A stretch of 64,000 bases of DNA from Eunapius fragilis (Eukaryota > Porifera > Demospongiae > Spongillida > Spongillidae). The DNA is taken from NCBI GenBank assembly GCA_963681505.1, contig OY811980.1:2840553-2904552 (forward strand), in the 5' to 3' direction. Below the pieces are notes generated by a model. That model saw only the letters and a list, made by a program, of their open reading frames with translations, ran no database searches and was not told where the DNA came from. Both the position numbers and the translations under genes were made by a program. Below are positions 7,501 to 54,585 of the stretch, piece after piece (the first letter of the stretch is position 1; every line of letters starts with the position of its first letter).

Positions 7501-7890
7501 TATCTGTGAAGGTGGCCTCTTCAACACGAATGAACAGTAAATATTGTAACAGTGTTGTTAAAATCTATATATGCTGCTTTTATAGATGTGGCAGTGGGTT
7601 GCGTGAGCTGTACAACACAAATGATGTTCAACATTTCTTCAACTCTGTCCCCATGAAGGTTTTAAATAATGCGAAGAAAATTTATCAACCAGGCTGTGGA
7701 CGAAAGGTTTGAACTGTATGGCCCTTAAAGTCATGGGGCACATTCATATCCTTCACAGGTTTCCACACATGTTCTACCTTTTGATTTAGTCAAAATTGAC
7801 ACACAAGATCTCCAATCTGTAACTTTCAGCCAATCCTTAAAATGGATCCTCCATTTCAAATACTCAGCCTGGACTTAGGTGATGTACGTC
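4583..7890 (+). pseudogene. Plavaka/CACTA-like transposase, 5' and central part, decayed
   Basis: At least eleven short exons read forward, including about 4,583-4,718, 4,777-4,890, 4,924-5,036, 5,150-5,238, 5,296-5,441, 5,600-5,800, 5,853-6,043, 6,103-6,522, 6,569-6,690, 6,809-7,090, 7,141-7,339 and 7,393-7,710. Recognisable blocks are an acidic leader (SESDSDVELE), YPFPSKTFALL..HSPRP, TPFYILPISSIISH, a central domain with LILFTDDLCGKNSKKW and FVIAPLLCVICDNPRAS, a Cys pair (CRFCM), HGNVCRHYKSFVGRDYKAW and FSAERCESFNSMVRLQN. These match the Plavaka-type branch of CACTA transposases known from fungi and invertebrates. Lesions: a shift near 6,930, a stop near 7,080, a shift near 7,260 and another near 7,840. 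The gene is cut by a MITE at 5,456 and a foldback element at 7,899, and continues at 10,415. Terminal repeats were not identified. Confidence 0.8.
5456..5577. mobile_element. 122-bp palindromic MITE, CACTG termini, TA duplication
   Basis: An almost perfect palindrome. The arms begin CACTGCTAAAAATAAAGAGT and the complement ends the element. It is flanked by TA on both sides (5,454-5,455 and 5,578-5,579), as expected for Tc1/mariner-mobilised non-autonomous elements. It sits between two readable exons of the Plavaka-like gene, so it arrived after that gene. Confidence 0.9.
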
Positions 7891-7998
7891 ATCAAGCTAT
7901 GGTGGCCCAGTAGGTCGCGTAACAAAACATTAGACATAAGAGCGATTTGGCGTAAAACCAAATCGTATTTGGCGCAAAACATATGACACAGAGACCAA

Positions 7999-8158
7999 AT
8001 CGGATTTGGCACAAAACATATGTCGGATTTGGCGCAAAGCGTAAGTGAGATTTGGCGCAAAGCGTATGTTGGATTTGGCGCAAAGCGTATGTCGGATTTG
8101 GCGCAAAGCGTATGACGGATTTGGCGCAAAGCGTATGACGGATTTGGCGCAAAACGTT
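7999..8158. repeat. 23-bp tandem array, left arm of foldback
   Basis: About seven degenerate copies of GATTTGGCGCAAAGCGTATGWCG with strict 23-bp spacing. The mirror array lies at about 10,150-10,335. It produces long repetitive frames that are not proteins. Confidence 0.9.
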
Positions 8159-8234
8159 TTTGGGCGTTGCCCCGGACCGGATGTCGGACAACGGAAGTAG
8201 TTATTGGAGCGATATATACGGCAGGCAGGCAGAC

Positions 8235-8560
8235 AAATGGTGGAGGTGTGTGTATGGGATAGTGGAGGTGTGTGTATGGGATAGTGGAGGTGTGTGTAGG
8301 GGATGGTGGAGGTGTGTGTATGGGATAGTGGAGGTGTGGTAGGGATGGTGGATCCCGGAGGTGTGTGTAAGGGATGGTGGTGTGTGTAGGGATAGTGGAT
8401 GTGTGTGTAGGGGATGGTGGATGTGTGTGTAGGGATGTTGGAGGTGTGTGGAAGGGATGGTAGAGGTGTGTGTAGGGAATGGTGTAGGTGTAGGGGATGG
8501 TGGGGTGTGTGGAGGAGATGGTGGAGATGTCTATGGGATAGGTGGAGGTGTGTAGGGGAT
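8235..8560. repeat. GTGTGT/GGGATRGTGGAG minisatellite, left arm of foldback
   Basis: Degenerate units of roughly 20-24 bp (GTGTGTAGGGGATGGTGGA and variants). The mirror array is at about 9,760-10,055 on the other strand. Confidence 0.85.
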
Positions 8561-9219
8561 GGCGGATGTGCACATGTGTTGGGTGATGCATATATCTGTG
8601 TGGCATATGTGCTTTGTACTTCACCATGTTATGTGGATCCATCCTCATCCTTCACACCTCCCCTCCACATCCTTCAGCCCTCCTCTCCACATCCATCAGC
8701 CCTCCTCTCCACATCCTTCACCCCTCCTCTCCACATCCTTCACCCCTCCCCTCTCCTCCACATCCATCACCCCTCCCCTCCATATCCTTCTCCCTCCAAG
8801 AAACATGCCAATATTAATTTGAACATGGTGATTTGTACCCATAGCTACTGTACGTATAACTACAATGTGTAAACTAAATGTATTATAATGACACACTGTA
8901 ATCATGAAACTAAATTGAAGCAAACTTAAAAAAGGGACAGCATTGATGATAATTCAGTTCCATTACAAAAAGGGGCATGGGGCGTGGTTAGGGTGGAGTC
9001 AAAAAGGTGACAGGGGCATTATATGTCAATGTCTGACGTGGGCATCAGTTTTTGGTGGCCATGTTGTTCACATCTTCATACATTGGCTGGCCCCACGCAT
9101 ACCGCCCAGGTTGCCATGCGACCCTGGACATTACCCGGGAAGAGGTGGGAGGCAGCTGCTGTGGACAGAACCCCCTTGACGTAATGATGGAGGGAGGCTG
9201 AGGCTATAACTTCTGTCTC

Positions 9220-9289: not shown

Positions 9290-10414
9290 CATGGCATATG
9301 GTATGGAAGTAGGCATTTCAAAATTCCAAATGGAGCACACCACACCTGAGATGGCTATCTGGAGCTTCCTTCATGCCCCAAAGGTTGACACACCAATCTC
9401 TTTGAGATCTTCCCCTGTCTGAGTGTCATGGTCAGGAAAGTGGTGAAATTCACCTGTAGGGCCCAAGGAGGGGAATGGAGAGGTGAAGGATGTTGAGGGG
9501 AGAAGGATGGGGAGGAGAGGGGAGAAGGATATGAAGGGCAGGGGAGAAGGATGGGGATGGGAGGGGTGAAGGATGGGGGAGGGGAGGGGGAAAGATGTGG
9601 AGGGGAGAGGAGAAGGATGTGGAGGGGAGGAGAGAAGGATGTGGAGGGGAGGGGGTGAAGGATGTGGAGGGGAGGAGTAAAGGATGACCACATAACATAG
9701 TAAAGTACAAAGCACATATGCCCACACAGATATATGCATCACCCAACACATGTGCACATCCGCCATCCCCTACACACCTCCACCTATCCCATAGACATCT
9801 CCACCATCTCCACACCCCCCAACATCTCCTAAACCTACACCATTCTCTACACACACCTCTACCATCCCTTCCACACACCTCCACCATCCCCTACACACAT
9901 CCACCATCCCCTACACACCTCCACTATCCCCTACACACACCTCCACTATCCCCTACACACCTCCACCATCCCCAACACACACTTCCACCATCCCTTACAC
10001 ACACCTCCACCATCCCCTACGCACACTTCCACTATCCCATACACACATCTCCATCATTTGTCTGCCGTATATATCGCTCCAATAACTATTTCCTTACGTC
10101 CGACATCCGGTCCGGGGCAACGCCCAAAAACGTTTTGCTCCAAAAACGTTTTGCGCCAAATCCGTCCTACGCTTTGCGCCAAATCCGGCATACGCTTTGC
10201 GCCAAATCCGACATACGCTTTGCGCCAAATCCGACATACGCTTTGCGCCAAATCCGACATACGCTTTGCGCCAAATCCGACATACGCTTTGCGCGACATA
10301 CGCTTTGCGCCAAATCCGTCATACGTTTTGCGCCTAATCCGATTTGGTTTTACGCCAAATCGCTCTTATGTCTAATGCTTTTGTACGCGACCTACCGGGC
10401 CACCGTATCAAGCT

Positions 10415-10937
10415 GTTGTGCAGTGCGGAGCCGTGTTTTCTAATAATGAGCTCATCCACTCTGGTGATTATGTTAAGTTCCGTTCTCCTGTTAATGAGGT
10501 ATAACAGTACAATGATAATGTCTGCTAAGTATGCAATGCATTTTATCTACCTGTAGTTCTTGTATGGTCAACTCCTTACAACACTCCAGCTAACATCTAG
10601 TTGTGCAACTATGTGCTTCGTGCGAGGGTTCGAAGCAATGGCTCTGGTTGATGGAACACCACTTTTGAATGAGTTTGACTGTCCATTGTTCTCATTGGCA
10701 CGAACCATTCTCTCAGTGGATAGCAGCAACATACTTGCAGCAGTCTCCTTCGTCCATGAATGTGATGAAGCATGTAACTTTGTGGAAAGGAATGTGCAGC
10801 TCACACAAGAAAGAGAAGAAACCGAAATGTCAAGGCTTTTTTTGAATATAACTGGAGTAATATGTTGTTCTGTAATAACCTTTTCTGTGTACAATAAATA
10901 TCATCCGACTATTCAAGTAAACTGCATGAGAAATATT
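10415..10937 (+). pseudogene. Plavaka/CACTA-like transposase, 3' part
   Basis: This continues the gene interrupted at 7,898. The first exon piece (10,415-10,498) has ELIHSGDYVKFRSPVNE, then a short intron of about 58 bp with a CTGTAG acceptor. The last exon (10,557-10,937) contains MCFVRGFEAMALVDGTPLLN and SNILAAVSFVHECDEACNF and ends at a TAG. The HECDxAC segment is typical of the C-terminal Cys/His part of these invertebrate proteins. Frame continuity across the foldback target site shows the gene was contiguous before the insertion. Confidence 0.75.
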
Positions 10938-45872: not shown

Positions 45873-46075
45873 GTTTAGTCTCGCGGGCCATGACGTAATA
45901 AGTAAGATATTACGTCTGGAGACTATATGCAACATTTCGCCTGAATTCTGGCGCTACCAATCAGATTGCAGCGGTCACATGACCGTCATGCTGTGGTTGT
46001 TAGCACCCTGTGATGATATGTATTCTGACGAAGACAATGAGAGCGCTATCGTGACGGCTTCTAACAGCTGGGTTA

Positions 46076-47205
46076 CAGTGAATTGCGTCAAAATCAGAGA
46101 GAGGTTTTTTTGAAGGGCAGAGACGTATTTGTGTGTCTTCCAACTGGAAGTGGGAAGTCACTGTGCTGTTGACTGCTTCCCTACGCGTTTGACATCCTCA
46201 GACGCGCAGAGCGGAAGAGTATGGTGCTTGTGGTTAGCCCCCTTACATGTATCTCTCTCATGAAAGACCAGGTGAGAGTTATGAAGGAAAAGAATATATC
46301 CACAGTCTACGGTCTAGAAGAAGAAGAACAGAGCGAAATTTGCAATTCCAGGTATCAGCTTATCTTTGTGAGCCCGGAGGCTCTCCAGAATGAGAGCGGT
46401 GGCGGGAGATACTCATGAATGACAACTTTCAGGAGAATCTTGTTGCTTTTGCCATAGATGAAGCTCACTGCGTCAAAAAATGGTAGGCATTTGTTGCAGA
46501 AATATGATTACTTAATAATGCTTTTTTGTGTGAATAGGGGCGAAACATTCCGTAAGGCTCTTTAGAGCTTGAAAATGTCCGAAGTTTATTACCTGAGCAT
46601 GTGAGAGTAATGGCACTGACAGCCACTGCAACCGTGGAAACACGTAAAGCTGTTTGTAGGTTACTGGGAATAATCAATCCTTTAGTTATTCTGGAAGTAC
46701 CTGATCGTCGTATTATCAAATACATTGTCCATGCTCTTGATGAATCAATGGAGGATAACTTTGCACCCCTGGTGGATATGAAATCCGACAAATGAGATTG
46801 AACATGGACAAGGTCATTATATACTGCCGAACATATGATGACTACACATCAATATACCTGCATTTAAGGTCAAAACTTAGAAAGGAGATGACAGAGCCAG
46901 TAGGGGCAAGGAACCTGCAGAATATCGATTGGTTGACATGTTTACAGCCTGCACAACAGCCTCTGTTAAGGATGCCATATTACAGTCCTTCTGTTCAACA
47001 GGAAGTAACCTTCGCGTTGTTATAGCAACAGTGGCATTAGGTATGGGACTTGACTGTCCTAATGTGAGGAGAGTGATCCACTGGGGGCCATCATCTGATT
47101 TAGAACAATATACACAGGAAACGGGTCGTGCAGGAAGAGATAACAAGCCCTCTACTGCGTTACTGTACTTGCCAGAAAGAAATATTCACAGGTGGATCAA
47201 AGCAT
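46076..47205 (+). pseudogene. RecQ-type superfamily 2 DNA helicase of the TIR element
   Basis: Reads as two main exons plus a helicase C-terminal part, with most RecQ motifs. Motif I VCLPTGSGKSLC, motif Ia VVSPLTCISLMKDQV, motif II FAIDEAHCVKKW (DEAH), motif III MALTATAT, DKVIIYCRTYDDY for motif IV, VVIATVALGMGLDCPNVRRV for V and QETGRAGRD for VI. An intron lies at about 46,482-46,538. Lesions: a TGA just after motif I, a TGA near 46,416 and shifts near 46,560, 46,795 and 46,920. Compared with cellular RecQ it has no HRDC domain and apparently no zinc/WH region; the gene ends soon after motif VI. A fragment of a relative is at 33,312. Confidence 0.85.
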
Positions 47206-47447
47206 GAAGGATTACTTCAGGAACACAGGCAAGTGTAGGAGAATGATGCTGCTTGATCACTTCCAAGACACACAAACAAAGCACATGGCACTCATACACA
47301 CCATTATTAACACTTGCAGTTGTTGTGATATGTGAAATTCACTGTGTGTGCATTACATGTAAAGCTCGTGTTGTCCAATGTGAAAAATGACTTGTTTCCT
47401 ATTAATCAGTGTGTAACAACTCTTTTGCCTTTACTAACTGCTTCATC

Positions 47448-50400
47448 ATCCATGTTTTTTAAGTTCATCTGTATCAGCTGATTTCATACAGTTAGCAGTA
47501 AAATTTTTGAAACTCTTGTGCTTTCGACCAGTAGAACATTTGAATACTTCACTTGTTTCATGTAGCTGTTTGATTAACATTTCCATATGATTCTTGCAAG
47601 AACGCTTTGAATGCCTATCTGAAGGTTTCTTGATGTCATTAACCTTATCAAACTGATTCAACACCTTCACAGTGCATCCAATGCTCTTTCCTACACGATG
47701 CACTGCACCATCAGTGATGTTGGATCCAAGTGCACCAATGCAACCTTTTGCTTCTCTATTAAGGTGTTCTAAGAACAGATCACATGGTCTATTTTTCCCT
47801 TGTCGCCCATGAATGTTAACTGTTCTGTTCCACATAAGCTGCATAGCCATTCTTGGAGAAAAAAGGAATGAATGCTGAGCCAGGAGATGAAAGGCCTCTA
47901 TTGAATAGTTAGTTTTGTTTGTGTGTTTAAATATGAGTAGAAAGTACTGCCAACATCGAATAATCCTGTGCCCATCTCCTTCGCGGATAGCATCTTTGAA
48001 TTCAAATAGGAGGCCAAGCTGCATTACTTCACATGCATATTCATAAACATGGTCTGCATTGTGTATATTTTCATTTTCTTTATCAGCATATGATATGTCC
48101 ACAAATGTATCAACTACTTTTTTTGCTGCAGTTTTCATAATACATGCTTGCTCTTTGCCCTCAAGCTTAAAACAATCTGTAGGAATGAATGAAGCTGTTG
48201 GCTTGTCATCAGTTGTGTTCATCCCAAAGAGCACCATAGCTGCAGATACTATATGAGCTTCAACTACTATTGTGAAGAAGTCTTCACAAGCATCCATAGC
48301 TTTACTAGGGTCCTTCACCACATTTCGTCTGTTGATTAGGTTCCGTAACTGTAAATAAAATATAGGATAAGTTTGAAATTTATTAAGGTGTATAATGTTA
48401 TACCCCCATTAAACACATCTTAGTGTGCCAGCCACAGGTATTAGACCATCAAGACGCTCTTCTCCCCTTTCAGCATTGCTCCTTGTACCGTTGCATCCTC
48501 TTACACGTGCAACTGTTAACTGATCACCACCTTTGTACAAGTATACGCATGACTGTGAGGTAATTACTAACACTTACCAAGCGCGATAGGGTGGCATGTA
48601 TCATTGTGCACTATCTTTGGATGTTCTTTGCCATTAACAGGCCCACTGACTGTTTCTGAGGTTGATTTGGCCGCATATCTTCATATTTCTGTTCACCTTT
48701 AGTTATAATTCCCAGAGGAACCTGCATGTGTTGATGTTAATAAGTACAGTTCTTTTAGTATTTTACTACTGACTTACTACTTCAGACTTTGCAGACATTT
48801 GTTTGGAAAATTCATGCTTTATGTGTCACTTCAATGTCTTTCCCAACTTTGCAAAGAATGGAATGTACTTCTTAAGAGTACGACATACAAGGGTTACAAA
48901 GTTGTTTCTAATCTGTATTTCATCTGTACTGGTAGGTAACAAGTTGTCTAGCTGAATGGCATTCAGGTCTGGAAGTTTGACCTCATTGCTGAATGCAGAC
49001 AGATCAACACGATCCCTCACAGCGTATGTTTGAAAATAGTGATGAGATTGGGTCTGGTGATCATACCTCATCTCACGAGGGGGATTCATTCTTGTCAAGA
49101 TTGTCACCAACAAGTTTGTACATTGTGAAAGTTGCCTCATTAATATCAGTTGATGTAACAACATTGTCTTCTTGGTCATCATCATCTGAATCATCTGTTG
49201 TTGCATATGCTGAAGAATTGGTTGTAAACCCAGAATAAGTTGGTGCACTTGAAGGCGAAGGAGAGTTGCTTTGAAAAACTGAAGAAATTGAACTGGTGAC
49301 ATTTGACCACATATCAGGTTCATTGCAGATGCCAGGCCTCTGTATACTGCTTTCTGATGTAGACTCATTAAAAGTAGAAGGTTGTAGCATAGGTGCACTA
49401 CTTTTTCCATTGTGAATGAATAATTCTTCAGAAGCGACAAGTCCTGAAAATGTTGTGCTACTTTCTGGACCTGGAAGAATACAGAATGATGATTGCTACT
49501 CCTCAGCAGATGGAATGTGCTGCAGCAAAGGCATGTATGAAAACATATCGCACATGCATACAATGCTTTATACAAATGTTTCACCTCATTTAATGATAGT
49601 TTCATATTTTCACGCCACTTAGTCACTTCTTCATCATGACTTTTGCCCAGAGCATCTAGCAACAAAAGAGTACGCCTGCATGACAGGCATAAACCCATTC
49701 TCTGTAGCCTCTTGAATGTCTATGAAAGAGTACAATTAGTATTATAAAACAATATAGTGTAAGCTTATGATTACTTATACCGTACTGTGCTGAAGCATGG
49801 CCACTGTTAAGAATAATTGATACATTGTCAACCTTCTGGAAGAGGTTTATGTGCTGATTTCTGTGCCGGAGTAAAATTGATGCACAAACACCCATTACTG
49901 CATCAGTAGAGAGGTGTCTGCTAGCGTTAGCCTTTGAATGTTGTTTATCAGTTTCTTTAGTGCATTTTCTTTTGACTTGTACCATTCCTTTCATGAGTTT
50001 ATGTAGAGTAGGTGCATGGGTCTGTAGATCTTTAACAACAGACTCCCATGAAAAATGGGTAAAAACAGTAAGATCGGTAGAGCGTAAATTTGTACCACTC
50101 TTCCTACTAGTCAAGTGTTTCATCTCTTTCTGTACATTCTTTGTTATGATCTCCAGTATCTTGCTCTTCATTGTTTCATCTTTCATAACTTGTCTTGCAA
50201 TTGACGCTCGATCTTTGCACCCTACATTCCTTGCCAAAGTCTTTAAACCTGATTCCTTCATGACACACTGTGCCTGAGATCTTCTCAAGCTTTTCACTAA
50301 AACCTATATTTGAGGGATGTGAATAAGGATGGCAGGTGTTAATTTTGTAGCCTCATGCTTCAATCCAACTTACTGCAACAACAGGAGATCTCTGATTATC

Positions 50401-50903
50401 TGATGGATTAATTACGTCTAGAGCTCTTCTAATAGAAAGGAGTTTGCAGTGTTTTCGGCTCTTCGTTTAGGAACAGGAGTATCTTGTTCGTCAATCGAAA
50501 TAGGTCTTTTACGGTTGGGAGTAGTAGCTGACGTATGTGTAATGGTCTGAGTGGCATCTTTCAAGATAGCGTTTCCTGCTTGCATTATTTGATGGTGTAG
50601 CAGTTCTTTAAGTTTTAGGAGTTGTGAACTGAGGTGTACTGCTTTTTTAGCTCTTTTAAAGCAAGGCCGGCATACACGGCACGTAGGGGGAAAAATAACC
50701 TTTGCAGCATCGGGGCCAAGAGTTTCGTGGACCATTTCATCTAGATAACGTAGCACATCGCCATTGGCTACATTATGAAGTGACCGCCTATATTTTGTTG
50801 TCTTCAGTTTGACGGTACACAGTCGGCACTCACATTCTGCAGCTGTAGGAACATTTGCCATGAATTTGGTTGCCGGTATCTTGCAGGCAAGATTTGTGGG
50901 CAC
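47448..50903 (-). CDS. DUF6589 protein, probable transposase of the TIR element
   Basis: Minus strand, about eight exons. The first (50,903-50,418) has a zinc-finger-like start, CECRLCTVKL and later PPTCRVCRPCFKRAKK, and a basic tail (PNRKRPI). Exon 2 (50,304-49,780) has a helical segment and HLSTDAVMGVCASILLRHRN. Exon 3 (about 49,724-49,586). A long exon (about 49,470-48,830) has a Ser- and Asp-rich stretch, then FQTYAVRDRVD and LLPTSTDEI. Short exons (48,720-48,580 and 48,560-48,420) contain the GGDQLTVARVRG motif. The last (48,345-47,448) has VKDPSKAMDACEDFF, NYSIEAFHLLAQHSFLFSPR and FLEHLNREAKGCIGALGSN, matching DUF6589 to near its end. Frame breaks near 50,440, 49,080, 48,815 and in the 48.6-kb exon suggest this copy is damaged, though some could be misread introns. 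Confidence 0.8.
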
Positions 50904-51267
50904 GTGGTTCAGCTGACACTCCCACTTGTGGGTACTGAATACATTCTTGGCATGTGACTTGGCCGATAATTACATTCCTGCTGCTCACAGAATGTTGCCT
51001 ATAGTAATATCTTACTTATTACGTCATGGCCCGCGAGACTAGTTGGCTAATTTACACTCATCTTAGGTATGTTTCTGTAACGTGGGTTCTTTGTATCTAA
51101 GTACTGTGTATTCTCTCTCACCAAATTCTTCCCCGTGATGTAAGTATATGTAGTGGCCAAGGAATCTCCAGTTGTGCCACAAACACTAAACATACATGAC
51201 AGGTGGATTTAGATACAAATCTGGATGAAGTCCGCATACTTGTCCTGGTTACCTGTGAGAGGTATGT

Positions 51268-53021: not shown

Positions 53022-54585
53022 GGTTCTAGCAGGGGAGAGGTCTGCAGTAATACGTGCTCTGCACCTCATAGAAGAGCTTGGTCCTCACTTGGGGCTTTAC
53101 ATCAATTTTTCCAAGTGTGAACTTTTCAGTAGGAGTGGTAATTCACTATTTCCACCAGTGGTGAAGTCATCTCTCCTTCCCAACCTGGACATCCTAGGGG
53201 CCCCAATTGGAGATTTTGTCCACTGTTCTCGCTTCATTGCTGAGAAATGTGCAATGCCCAAGATCTTGCTTAAGGCTCTTGTGGATGTCTCTACAGTTGA
53301 CCTTCACGTGGCTTTTCGCTTCTTCGTATGTGTGGAAGTTACTGTAAGTTAGTGCATCTAGCCAGAGCCACTCCTCCAAGCCATTGTGCTGACTATCTTA
53401 AGCTCTTTGATGAGGAGGTAAGGCTATGCTTCACCTCCTGCATTGCAGTGGATGTCCCTGACCCAAATTGGCAGCAAGCACAACTCAGTCAGAGTTTTGG
53501 TGGGCTTGGCTTTCGGTCCCTTGCTTTGCACTGTCCTGCTGCGTTTATAGCTTCCCTTGCTTCATCAGGATTTGGTAGTGCCGATAACATACACATGCCT
53601 CAGGCTGTGACCCACTTCAATACTCAGGTTCCCCCTGATGAGTCAATCACAGCTGAGGAGGTTCTGGTCAACCTGCCTCCACAAAGAGCTCTGTCTAAGA
53701 AGCTGGATATGCATGTTTTCCAATCACTGCTATCTTCCTCCTCTCCAGTGAATAAGGCTCGGATCCTTTCTGTTTCTGCCCCTCATGCGGGTTCTTGGAT
53801 CTCAGTCATCCCTTCTACTGGTCTGGATCTGCACCTTAACTCTGCTGAATGTCAGGTAGCACTCAGATGGTGGTTGGGTCTTGACACCTCTGGAGGTTCT
53901 CTGTGTCCACATTGTCCTGATATTGCCCTTGACCCTCTAGGTCATCATGCAGCCTCCTGCAGACATGGTGGTGATGTGGTTGCAAGGCACAATCACTTGC
54001 GGGATATCTTTGCTAACTTTTGCCGCCAGGCCCACCTTTCTGTGAGGGTTGAAGTTGGGTATGGCTTAGCTAGGGACCATGTTAACTCTCGCCCTGCGGA
54101 TGTCCTTGTTCAGGGATGGGACAGAGGAAAGCCTGCGGCCTTTGACGTTACTGTTGCTTCACCCCTTACACCAGTAACCCTCAACAATGCCAGTACATCT
54201 GTGGGAGCAGCAGCCTATGCTGCTGAACTTAGAAAGCATGTGGCCAATGGCACCAGATGCCAGGAGTTGGGGTGGACATGTATCCCCCTAGCTGTAGAAA
54301 CATACGGTAACTGGGGGAAGGAGGCCCAGAGTGTTTTCTCCCGTCTTGCCTCTCTACTTGCCATCGGCCAGGCCATTCCCAAACCCAAAATGCTGGGTGA
54401 CATCTATGGCCACCTCAACATGTCACTGGTGAGGTCAGTGGCTAGGGCCATCATGGGGAGAGAAAATGTCCGGTTAGGTTAGAAGAACTGTAGGTTTGTT
54501 AGCGGCATCTATTGTAAGTTAGTTATCCTTATAATATTGTAATTGTGTTAGTCCTTTTATCCTGCTGTAACTGTATTCTGTTGTC

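Follow-up and report, generated by a model that had tools for sequence, protein, structure and literature searches.

Pairing of RecQ with DUF6589, very probably a transposase, in a transposon family of the sponge Eunapius fragilis

What kind of mobile element, if any, is formed by a RecQ-type helicase gene and a gene for a DUF6589 protein that converge on each other between perfect terminal inverted repeats (TIRs), and which of the two proteins would move it? The question is raised by a locus in a 64-kb window of Eunapius fragilis contig OY811980.1 (the window is the whole stretch of DNA analysed; coordinates are positions in it unless a contig is named), where an earlier note, made from the letters alone, had seen a DNA transposon, proposed DUF6589 as its transposase or catalytic partner, and pointed to AcademH-type elements. 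We consider it quite likely that a DNA transposon of the AcademH type, bounded by TIRs and equipped with two genes, has left a decayed copy at this locus; in this element, DUF6589 would comprise most of the Asp-Asp-Glu (DDE) core and the RecQ helicase would be an accessory.

The association of the two genes, first noticed in this single copy, is a family trait that is widespread in the genome. A search of the genome (219 Mb, 24 contigs) yielded at least 116 DUF6589 matches that cluster into 90 places, and at 74 of these a convergent RecQ match lies 170-1443 bp downstream of DUF6589 on the opposite strand, with about 0.07 expected by chance; among the best 30 DUF6589 loci, the window copy being one of them, the convergent RecQ is found in 30/30. 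Of the 134 helicase matches in the genome, 75 are paired with DUF6589, and the 59 unpaired ones probably include host helicase genes. Outside this genome, neither the 32 pattern matches in viral contigs nor the 80 in prokaryote genomes yielded a confirmed relative.

The ends of the other copies bear the marks of transposition. Among 20 DUF6589 copies other than that in the window, whose end stretches we compared, TIRs of the TAG..CTA type could be traced to both ends in 13; they start with TAGTCTCG, TAGCCTCG or TAGTCTGG (TAGTCGGG in L018) and are 31-167 bp long, that of L029 being split into two blocks of 25 and 136. One end of L010 is clipped, by some 5 bases. Target duplications of 9 bp that are both exact and informative flank nine copies (L013, L014, L024, L025, L026, L027, L029, L030 and L038), and a tenth is found in L021, where it falls within a C run and the right end is without its final base; the duplication is 8 bp long in L023 and, with 2 mismatches, 10 bp long in L018, and it is missing from L028. 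When, as a control, left flanks were each combined with a right flank taken from a different copy, 0/156 duplication matches resulted. Furthermore, only 2-3 of 5,094 bases distinguish any two of L025, L026 and L028, and L025 is unrelated in its left flank to L024, L026 and L028. Because near-identical copies thus occupy unrelated sites, the movement of the sister copies is recent.

So which protein would be responsible for this movement? Several lines of evidence point to DUF6589. In the loci where the respective stretch was found (a count that includes near-identical copies and excludes L015, which duplicates the window), a candidate first-Asp motif GDN[ILV]D, typically VGDN[ILV]D, is present in 25/27, the exceptions being L017 and the window copy with its frame change; a candidate second-Asp motif GD[QH], typically GGD[QH], likewise in 25/27, with L011 and L012 as exceptions; and a candidate Glu motif DL[HF]xEHxN, typically DLHMEHLN, in 30/30. 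All three motifs remain readable in the window copy, although its gene is broken. Alignment A1, of 9 sequences and confined to the last exon, shows EGDGxR and DLxxEHxN as recurring motifs. The joined core of L013 matches DUF6589 with E 8.9e-61 from residue 59 onward, that is, starting about 50 residues past the conserved GDN motif, and the Pfam model PF20231 appears to omit the likely first catalytic Asp. The order of the motifs, and the long sequence that separates the second Asp from the Glu, would suit a transposase of the RNase H-like kind that contains a helical insertion, and DUF6589 very probably is the transposase, as judged from this conservation and from the selective constraint described below.

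Both genes are under purifying selection in diverged copies. The ratio of nonsynonymous to synonymous divergence (dN/dS) is 0.14 for the transposase and 0.19 for the helicase in the pair L030-L036, and 0.11 and 0.12, respectively, in L023-L032, these being the two diverged pairs with measurable dS in both genes. In a set of 16 non-redundant copies, the identities of the two genes are correlated (r 0.87, 0/5,000 permutations). Given this correlation together with the constraint, we conclude that the helicase has been kept and largely inherited along with the transposase rather than acquired afresh each time.

These findings suggest a simple scenario of transposition. The DUF6589 core would carry out DDE catalysis of the RNase H-like kind with the Asp of VGDN[ILV]D, the Asp of GGD[QH] and the Glu of DLHMEHLN; the transposase probably binds the TAG..CTA TIRs via a Cys-rich N-terminus and would excise the element, moving it by cut-and-paste rather than by copying. 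Joining to target DNA would occur with a 9-base stagger, leaving each new copy flanked by a 9-bp duplication, and the co-inherited RecQ accessory would probably unwind the ends or help gap repair or replication.

Several observations weigh against this interpretation, in whole or in part. The window copy itself is without a 9-bp target duplication, its flanking 9-mers differing at 7/9 positions (the young copy L028 is in the same state). A full TIR pair was not found in the fetched stretches of 6/20 sister copies (L009, L017, L020, L022, L036 and L037), of which L022 and L036 have the terminal motif at one end. The earlier note had held that the pairing would be accidental if DUF6589 genes throughout the genome were without TIRs; the 13 copies with traced TIRs and the clipped one speak for the transposon, and these six do not. 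At 16/90 DUF6589 clusters there is no RecQ match in the expected place, 3 of the 16 adjoining other pieces of the family. In close pairs, dN/dS is noisy or undefined owing to the few changes, with 0.82 for the helicase of L010-L011 and 0.74 for the transposase of L012-L018; several diverged pairs, including the window copy and L038, are saturated at dS. For 8/16 copies, helicase and transposase point to different nearest neighbours. A profile search of PDB sequences gave two chance-level matches only (E 0.13 and 1.8). Finally, membership in AcademH would follow from the helicase and the duplication length rather than from a comparison of transposase sequences.

How, then, do the competing interpretations fare? 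Conceivably, DUF6589 is itself only an accessory, the true transposase having been overlooked or being supplied in trans, and the deduction of its catalytic residues from conservation leaves some room for this view; it is nevertheless very improbable, considering that the window copy and the four sister copies with listed frames each show two recognised genes only, one of which encodes a RecQ helicase and the other of which is constrained and has the D..D..E set. The other alternatives concern the kind of transposon. AcademH is reportedly a lineage of the Academ superfamily, after an account by Kojima of 2020. The nuclease of AcademX is XPG; a search of the genome for XPG_I gave 3 matches, none of them near the DUF6589 matches listed, as judged by comparing the lists by eye. 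In the excerpted text of PMC10045372, AcademX has a nuclease and target duplications of 3 or 4 bp, AcademH a helicase and duplications of 9 or 10 bp, and the difference in length is linked to the helicase and the nuclease. With no XPG_I near the listed matches, and with duplications of 9 bp rather than 3 or 4, we reject an AcademX identity. A transposon like KolobokH would also unite a transposase with RecQ: according to an excerpt of PMC9587614, KolobokH carries a RecQ helicase, and a red-alga Kolobok has one on the complementary strand. The same source gives Kolobok 4-bp TTAA duplications and RR..YY termini and describes KolobokH as confined to fungi, whereas the 13 sister copies whose ends could be traced show 0 TTAA duplications and have TA..TA termini. 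Neither duplication nor termini fit, so that this identity, too, is rejected, its probability being practically negligible.

A less easily dismissed possibility is that RecQ-carrying DDE transposons of this kind form a superfamily of their own, one without a name, that would be similar to AcademH only in the helicase and the duplication length. The likeness to AcademH indeed covers the description and not the transposase sequence, Pfam still labels the protein as a family of unknown function, and the TIR starts vary from copy to copy; however, a helicase combined with a 9-bp duplication is AcademH as portrayed in the excerpted text of PMC10045372, and we regard a separate superfamily as decidedly unlikely. 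The AcademH reading, including the link drawn in the earlier note, gains its support from the helicase and the 9-bp duplications of the sister copies. It could be extended to the bolder proposal that DUF6589 is the catalytic core of the entire Academ superfamily and that RecQ, far from being a passenger, is an obligate, co-evolving component of the AcademH machinery that sets the unusually long 9-bp stagger; we put this forward tentatively, as a possibility that on balance we doubt. The papers matching a term search for AcademH/DUF6589, a set that does not cover the original AcademH description, contain 0 mentions of DUF6589, and we do not claim the link as unpublished.

Turning to the window copy (Table 1), its TIRs are, as reported earlier, perfect over 38 bp, and the element that they bound measures 5,166 bp, its last base being 51041; the length of 5,165 bp and the end at 51040 given before are each one short. 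Even when up to 3 mismatches are tolerated, the terminal 20-mer of the TIR matches just 2 places in the window (0.00 expected). Inside, a RecQ-type helicase gene on the plus strand and a DUF6589 gene on the minus strand converge, and both families are recognisable as had been claimed: Pfam detects Helicase_C (1.3e-12) and RecQ_Zn_bind (9.4e-7) on the plus strand, the DEAD match there being weak (0.019, below its cut-off), and DUF6589 in two pieces on the minus strand. The remnants of both genes were mapped by tblastn with protein pieces of the relative L038. Those of the helicase fall in all three frames; in the transposase, the exon with the first-Asp motif changes frame right after VGDNLDK and has an in-frame TAA further on, and the conserved EDWH..GT stretch, which would follow the GGDQ motif and precede the last exon, is missing. 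Thus, both genes are pseudogenes and this copy is dead. The two genes had been described as multi-exon; to the eye, each has at least one genuine-looking intron, with GT..AG junctions where relatives also break, but since neither gene is intact, part of the apparent multi-exon structure owes to decay and not to splicing. Nor is this the good type copy that it had been taken for, given its broken genes, the missing target duplication and the existence of young sister copies that are near-identical to one another.

Table 1. Features of the transposon copy in the window (strand relative to the window)
Feature	Position	Strand	Basis or remarks
GTT flank match	45873..45875, again 51042-51044	.	sole flank match; no 9-bp duplication
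TIR, helicase-side end	45876..45913	+	starts TAGTCTCGCGGG; 38/38 complementary to other end
Hairpin-forming sequence TAGTCTC...GAGACTA, helicase-side end	45876..45926	+	DNA fold -10.5 kcal/mol, z -4.53
Remnant RecQ-family helicase gene	46068..47360	+	tblastn with L038 helicase pieces; Pfam Helicase_C, RecQ_Zn_bind
In-frame TGA of helicase remnant	46170-46172	+	just 3' of Walker A motif
Probable helicase intron	about 46483-46537	+	by eye
Transposase exon (DUF6589, C-terminal part) with EGDGxR and DLxxEHLN, the latter the likely catalytic-Glu motif	47446..48408	-	Pfam E 5.1e-29; alignment A1
Transposase exon remnant, candidate second-Asp motif GGDQLT	48409..48573	-	Pfam E 1.7e-4, below curated family cut-off
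Transposase exon, candidate first-Asp motif VGDNLDK	48775..49129	-	tblastn with L038
Short transposase exon remnant	49600..49719	-	tblastn with L038, 52.5% over 40 amino acids (aa)
Transposase exon remnant, N-terminal to putative catalytic core	49785..50285	-	tblastn with L038, 36.5% over 167 aa
Cys-rich first-exon candidate (CxxC pairs)	50418..50969	-	open frame, 183 aa
TIR, transposase-side end	51004..51041	-	38/38

Some features of this copy call for comment. The 3-bp GTT was rejected as its target duplication and is probably due to chance, because the sister copies have 9-bp duplications. The hairpin at the helicase-side end folds better than any of 200 shuffles (0/200 equally well), and none was found at the transposase-side end (DNA fold z 0.01); an arrangement resembling it is visible by eye at the end of L060. 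It may be a substrate of the helicase or the transposase, at one end only. The Cys-rich first-exon candidate has no Pfam match and was not matched by the first exon of L038 in tblastn; L038 has a Cys-rich exon at a like position, with only a sub-threshold zf-AD match (E 0.054). The candidate, with its CxxC pairs, is perhaps zinc-binding and DNA-binding.

The earlier note had recommended a genome search with the TIR, and this probe finds much besides the family. The TIR 20-mer has 26 exact matches in the genome, 24 of which belong to an unrelated short dispersed repeat (L001-L008, L039-L043 and L046-L056, at position 1501), where the same 20-mer is followed, with small variants, by the palindrome GCCATGACGTAATATTACGTCATGGC; no partner TIR lies within 1.5 kb of any of these 24, even with up to 5 mismatches allowed. 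Counting copies by the 20-mer was accordingly dropped as misleading. The repeat gives the impression that a pair of TIR tails, from a tiny non-autonomous copy, had been captured in it. A related terminus, TAGTCTCGCAAGCCAGGACG, occurs at 53 places in the genome, compared with 0 in a reversed control, and perhaps represents the ends of a non-autonomous family.

With regard to individual relatives, L027 (with L063 and L064; C6:5207820-5214923) is an otherwise near-identical copy that has an extra partial TIR outside the normal TIR at one end, and its 9-bp duplication flanks this outer, partial TIR. A further DUF6589 and RecQ copy, L011 (C10:2909935-2911188), is located about 5.4 kb past the end of the window and shows only about 41% identity to the window copy in the last exon. 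Elsewhere in the window, a 384-aa open frame on the plus strand (53328-54482), with no Pfam match, contains a Cys/His stretch that, we presume, recalls the C-terminus of a retroelement polymerase. Long open frames at 7875-8648 (minus strand; no Pfam match) and 9718-10443 (plus strand) consist of low-complexity repeats rich in His, Pro, Thr and Tyr and are probably repeat DNA rather than genes.

On the whole, the earlier note had recognised a real transposon family and read it largely correctly. The family described here is a known kind of transposon, and the useful result is the assignment of DUF6589, by which a family that Pfam continues to list as unknown would acquire a likely function. In practical terms, most DUF6589 genes of this genome are to be annotated as transposon genes, not as host genes. 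Furthermore, the near-identical copies with clean duplications open a RecQ-carrying transposon to bench tests of the role of the helicase.

Set against known systems, the element is like AcademH, compared by description, in being a helicase-encoding DNA transposon with 9-bp duplications in the sister copies, and the window copy itself differs, having neither a duplication nor intact genes. AcademX would share its superfamily if the AcademH assignment is right. With KolobokH it has in common the combination of a putative DDE transposase and a RecQ helicase; it differs in the TTAA and RR..YY signatures that the excerpt of PMC9587614 gives for Kolobok. At the level of the proteins, the putative transposase is a clear member of PF20231 DUF6589, but its likely first Asp appears to lie outside the model. 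With 271 bits, the joined helicase of L038 clears the curated cut-off of the RecQ family model TIGR00614 (219.8), yet it is borne by a transposon; among solved structures, its closest relatives in sequence are bacterial RecQ, WRN, RECQ1 and BLM, and, relative to bacterial RecQ, it scores far under the equivalog cut-offs.

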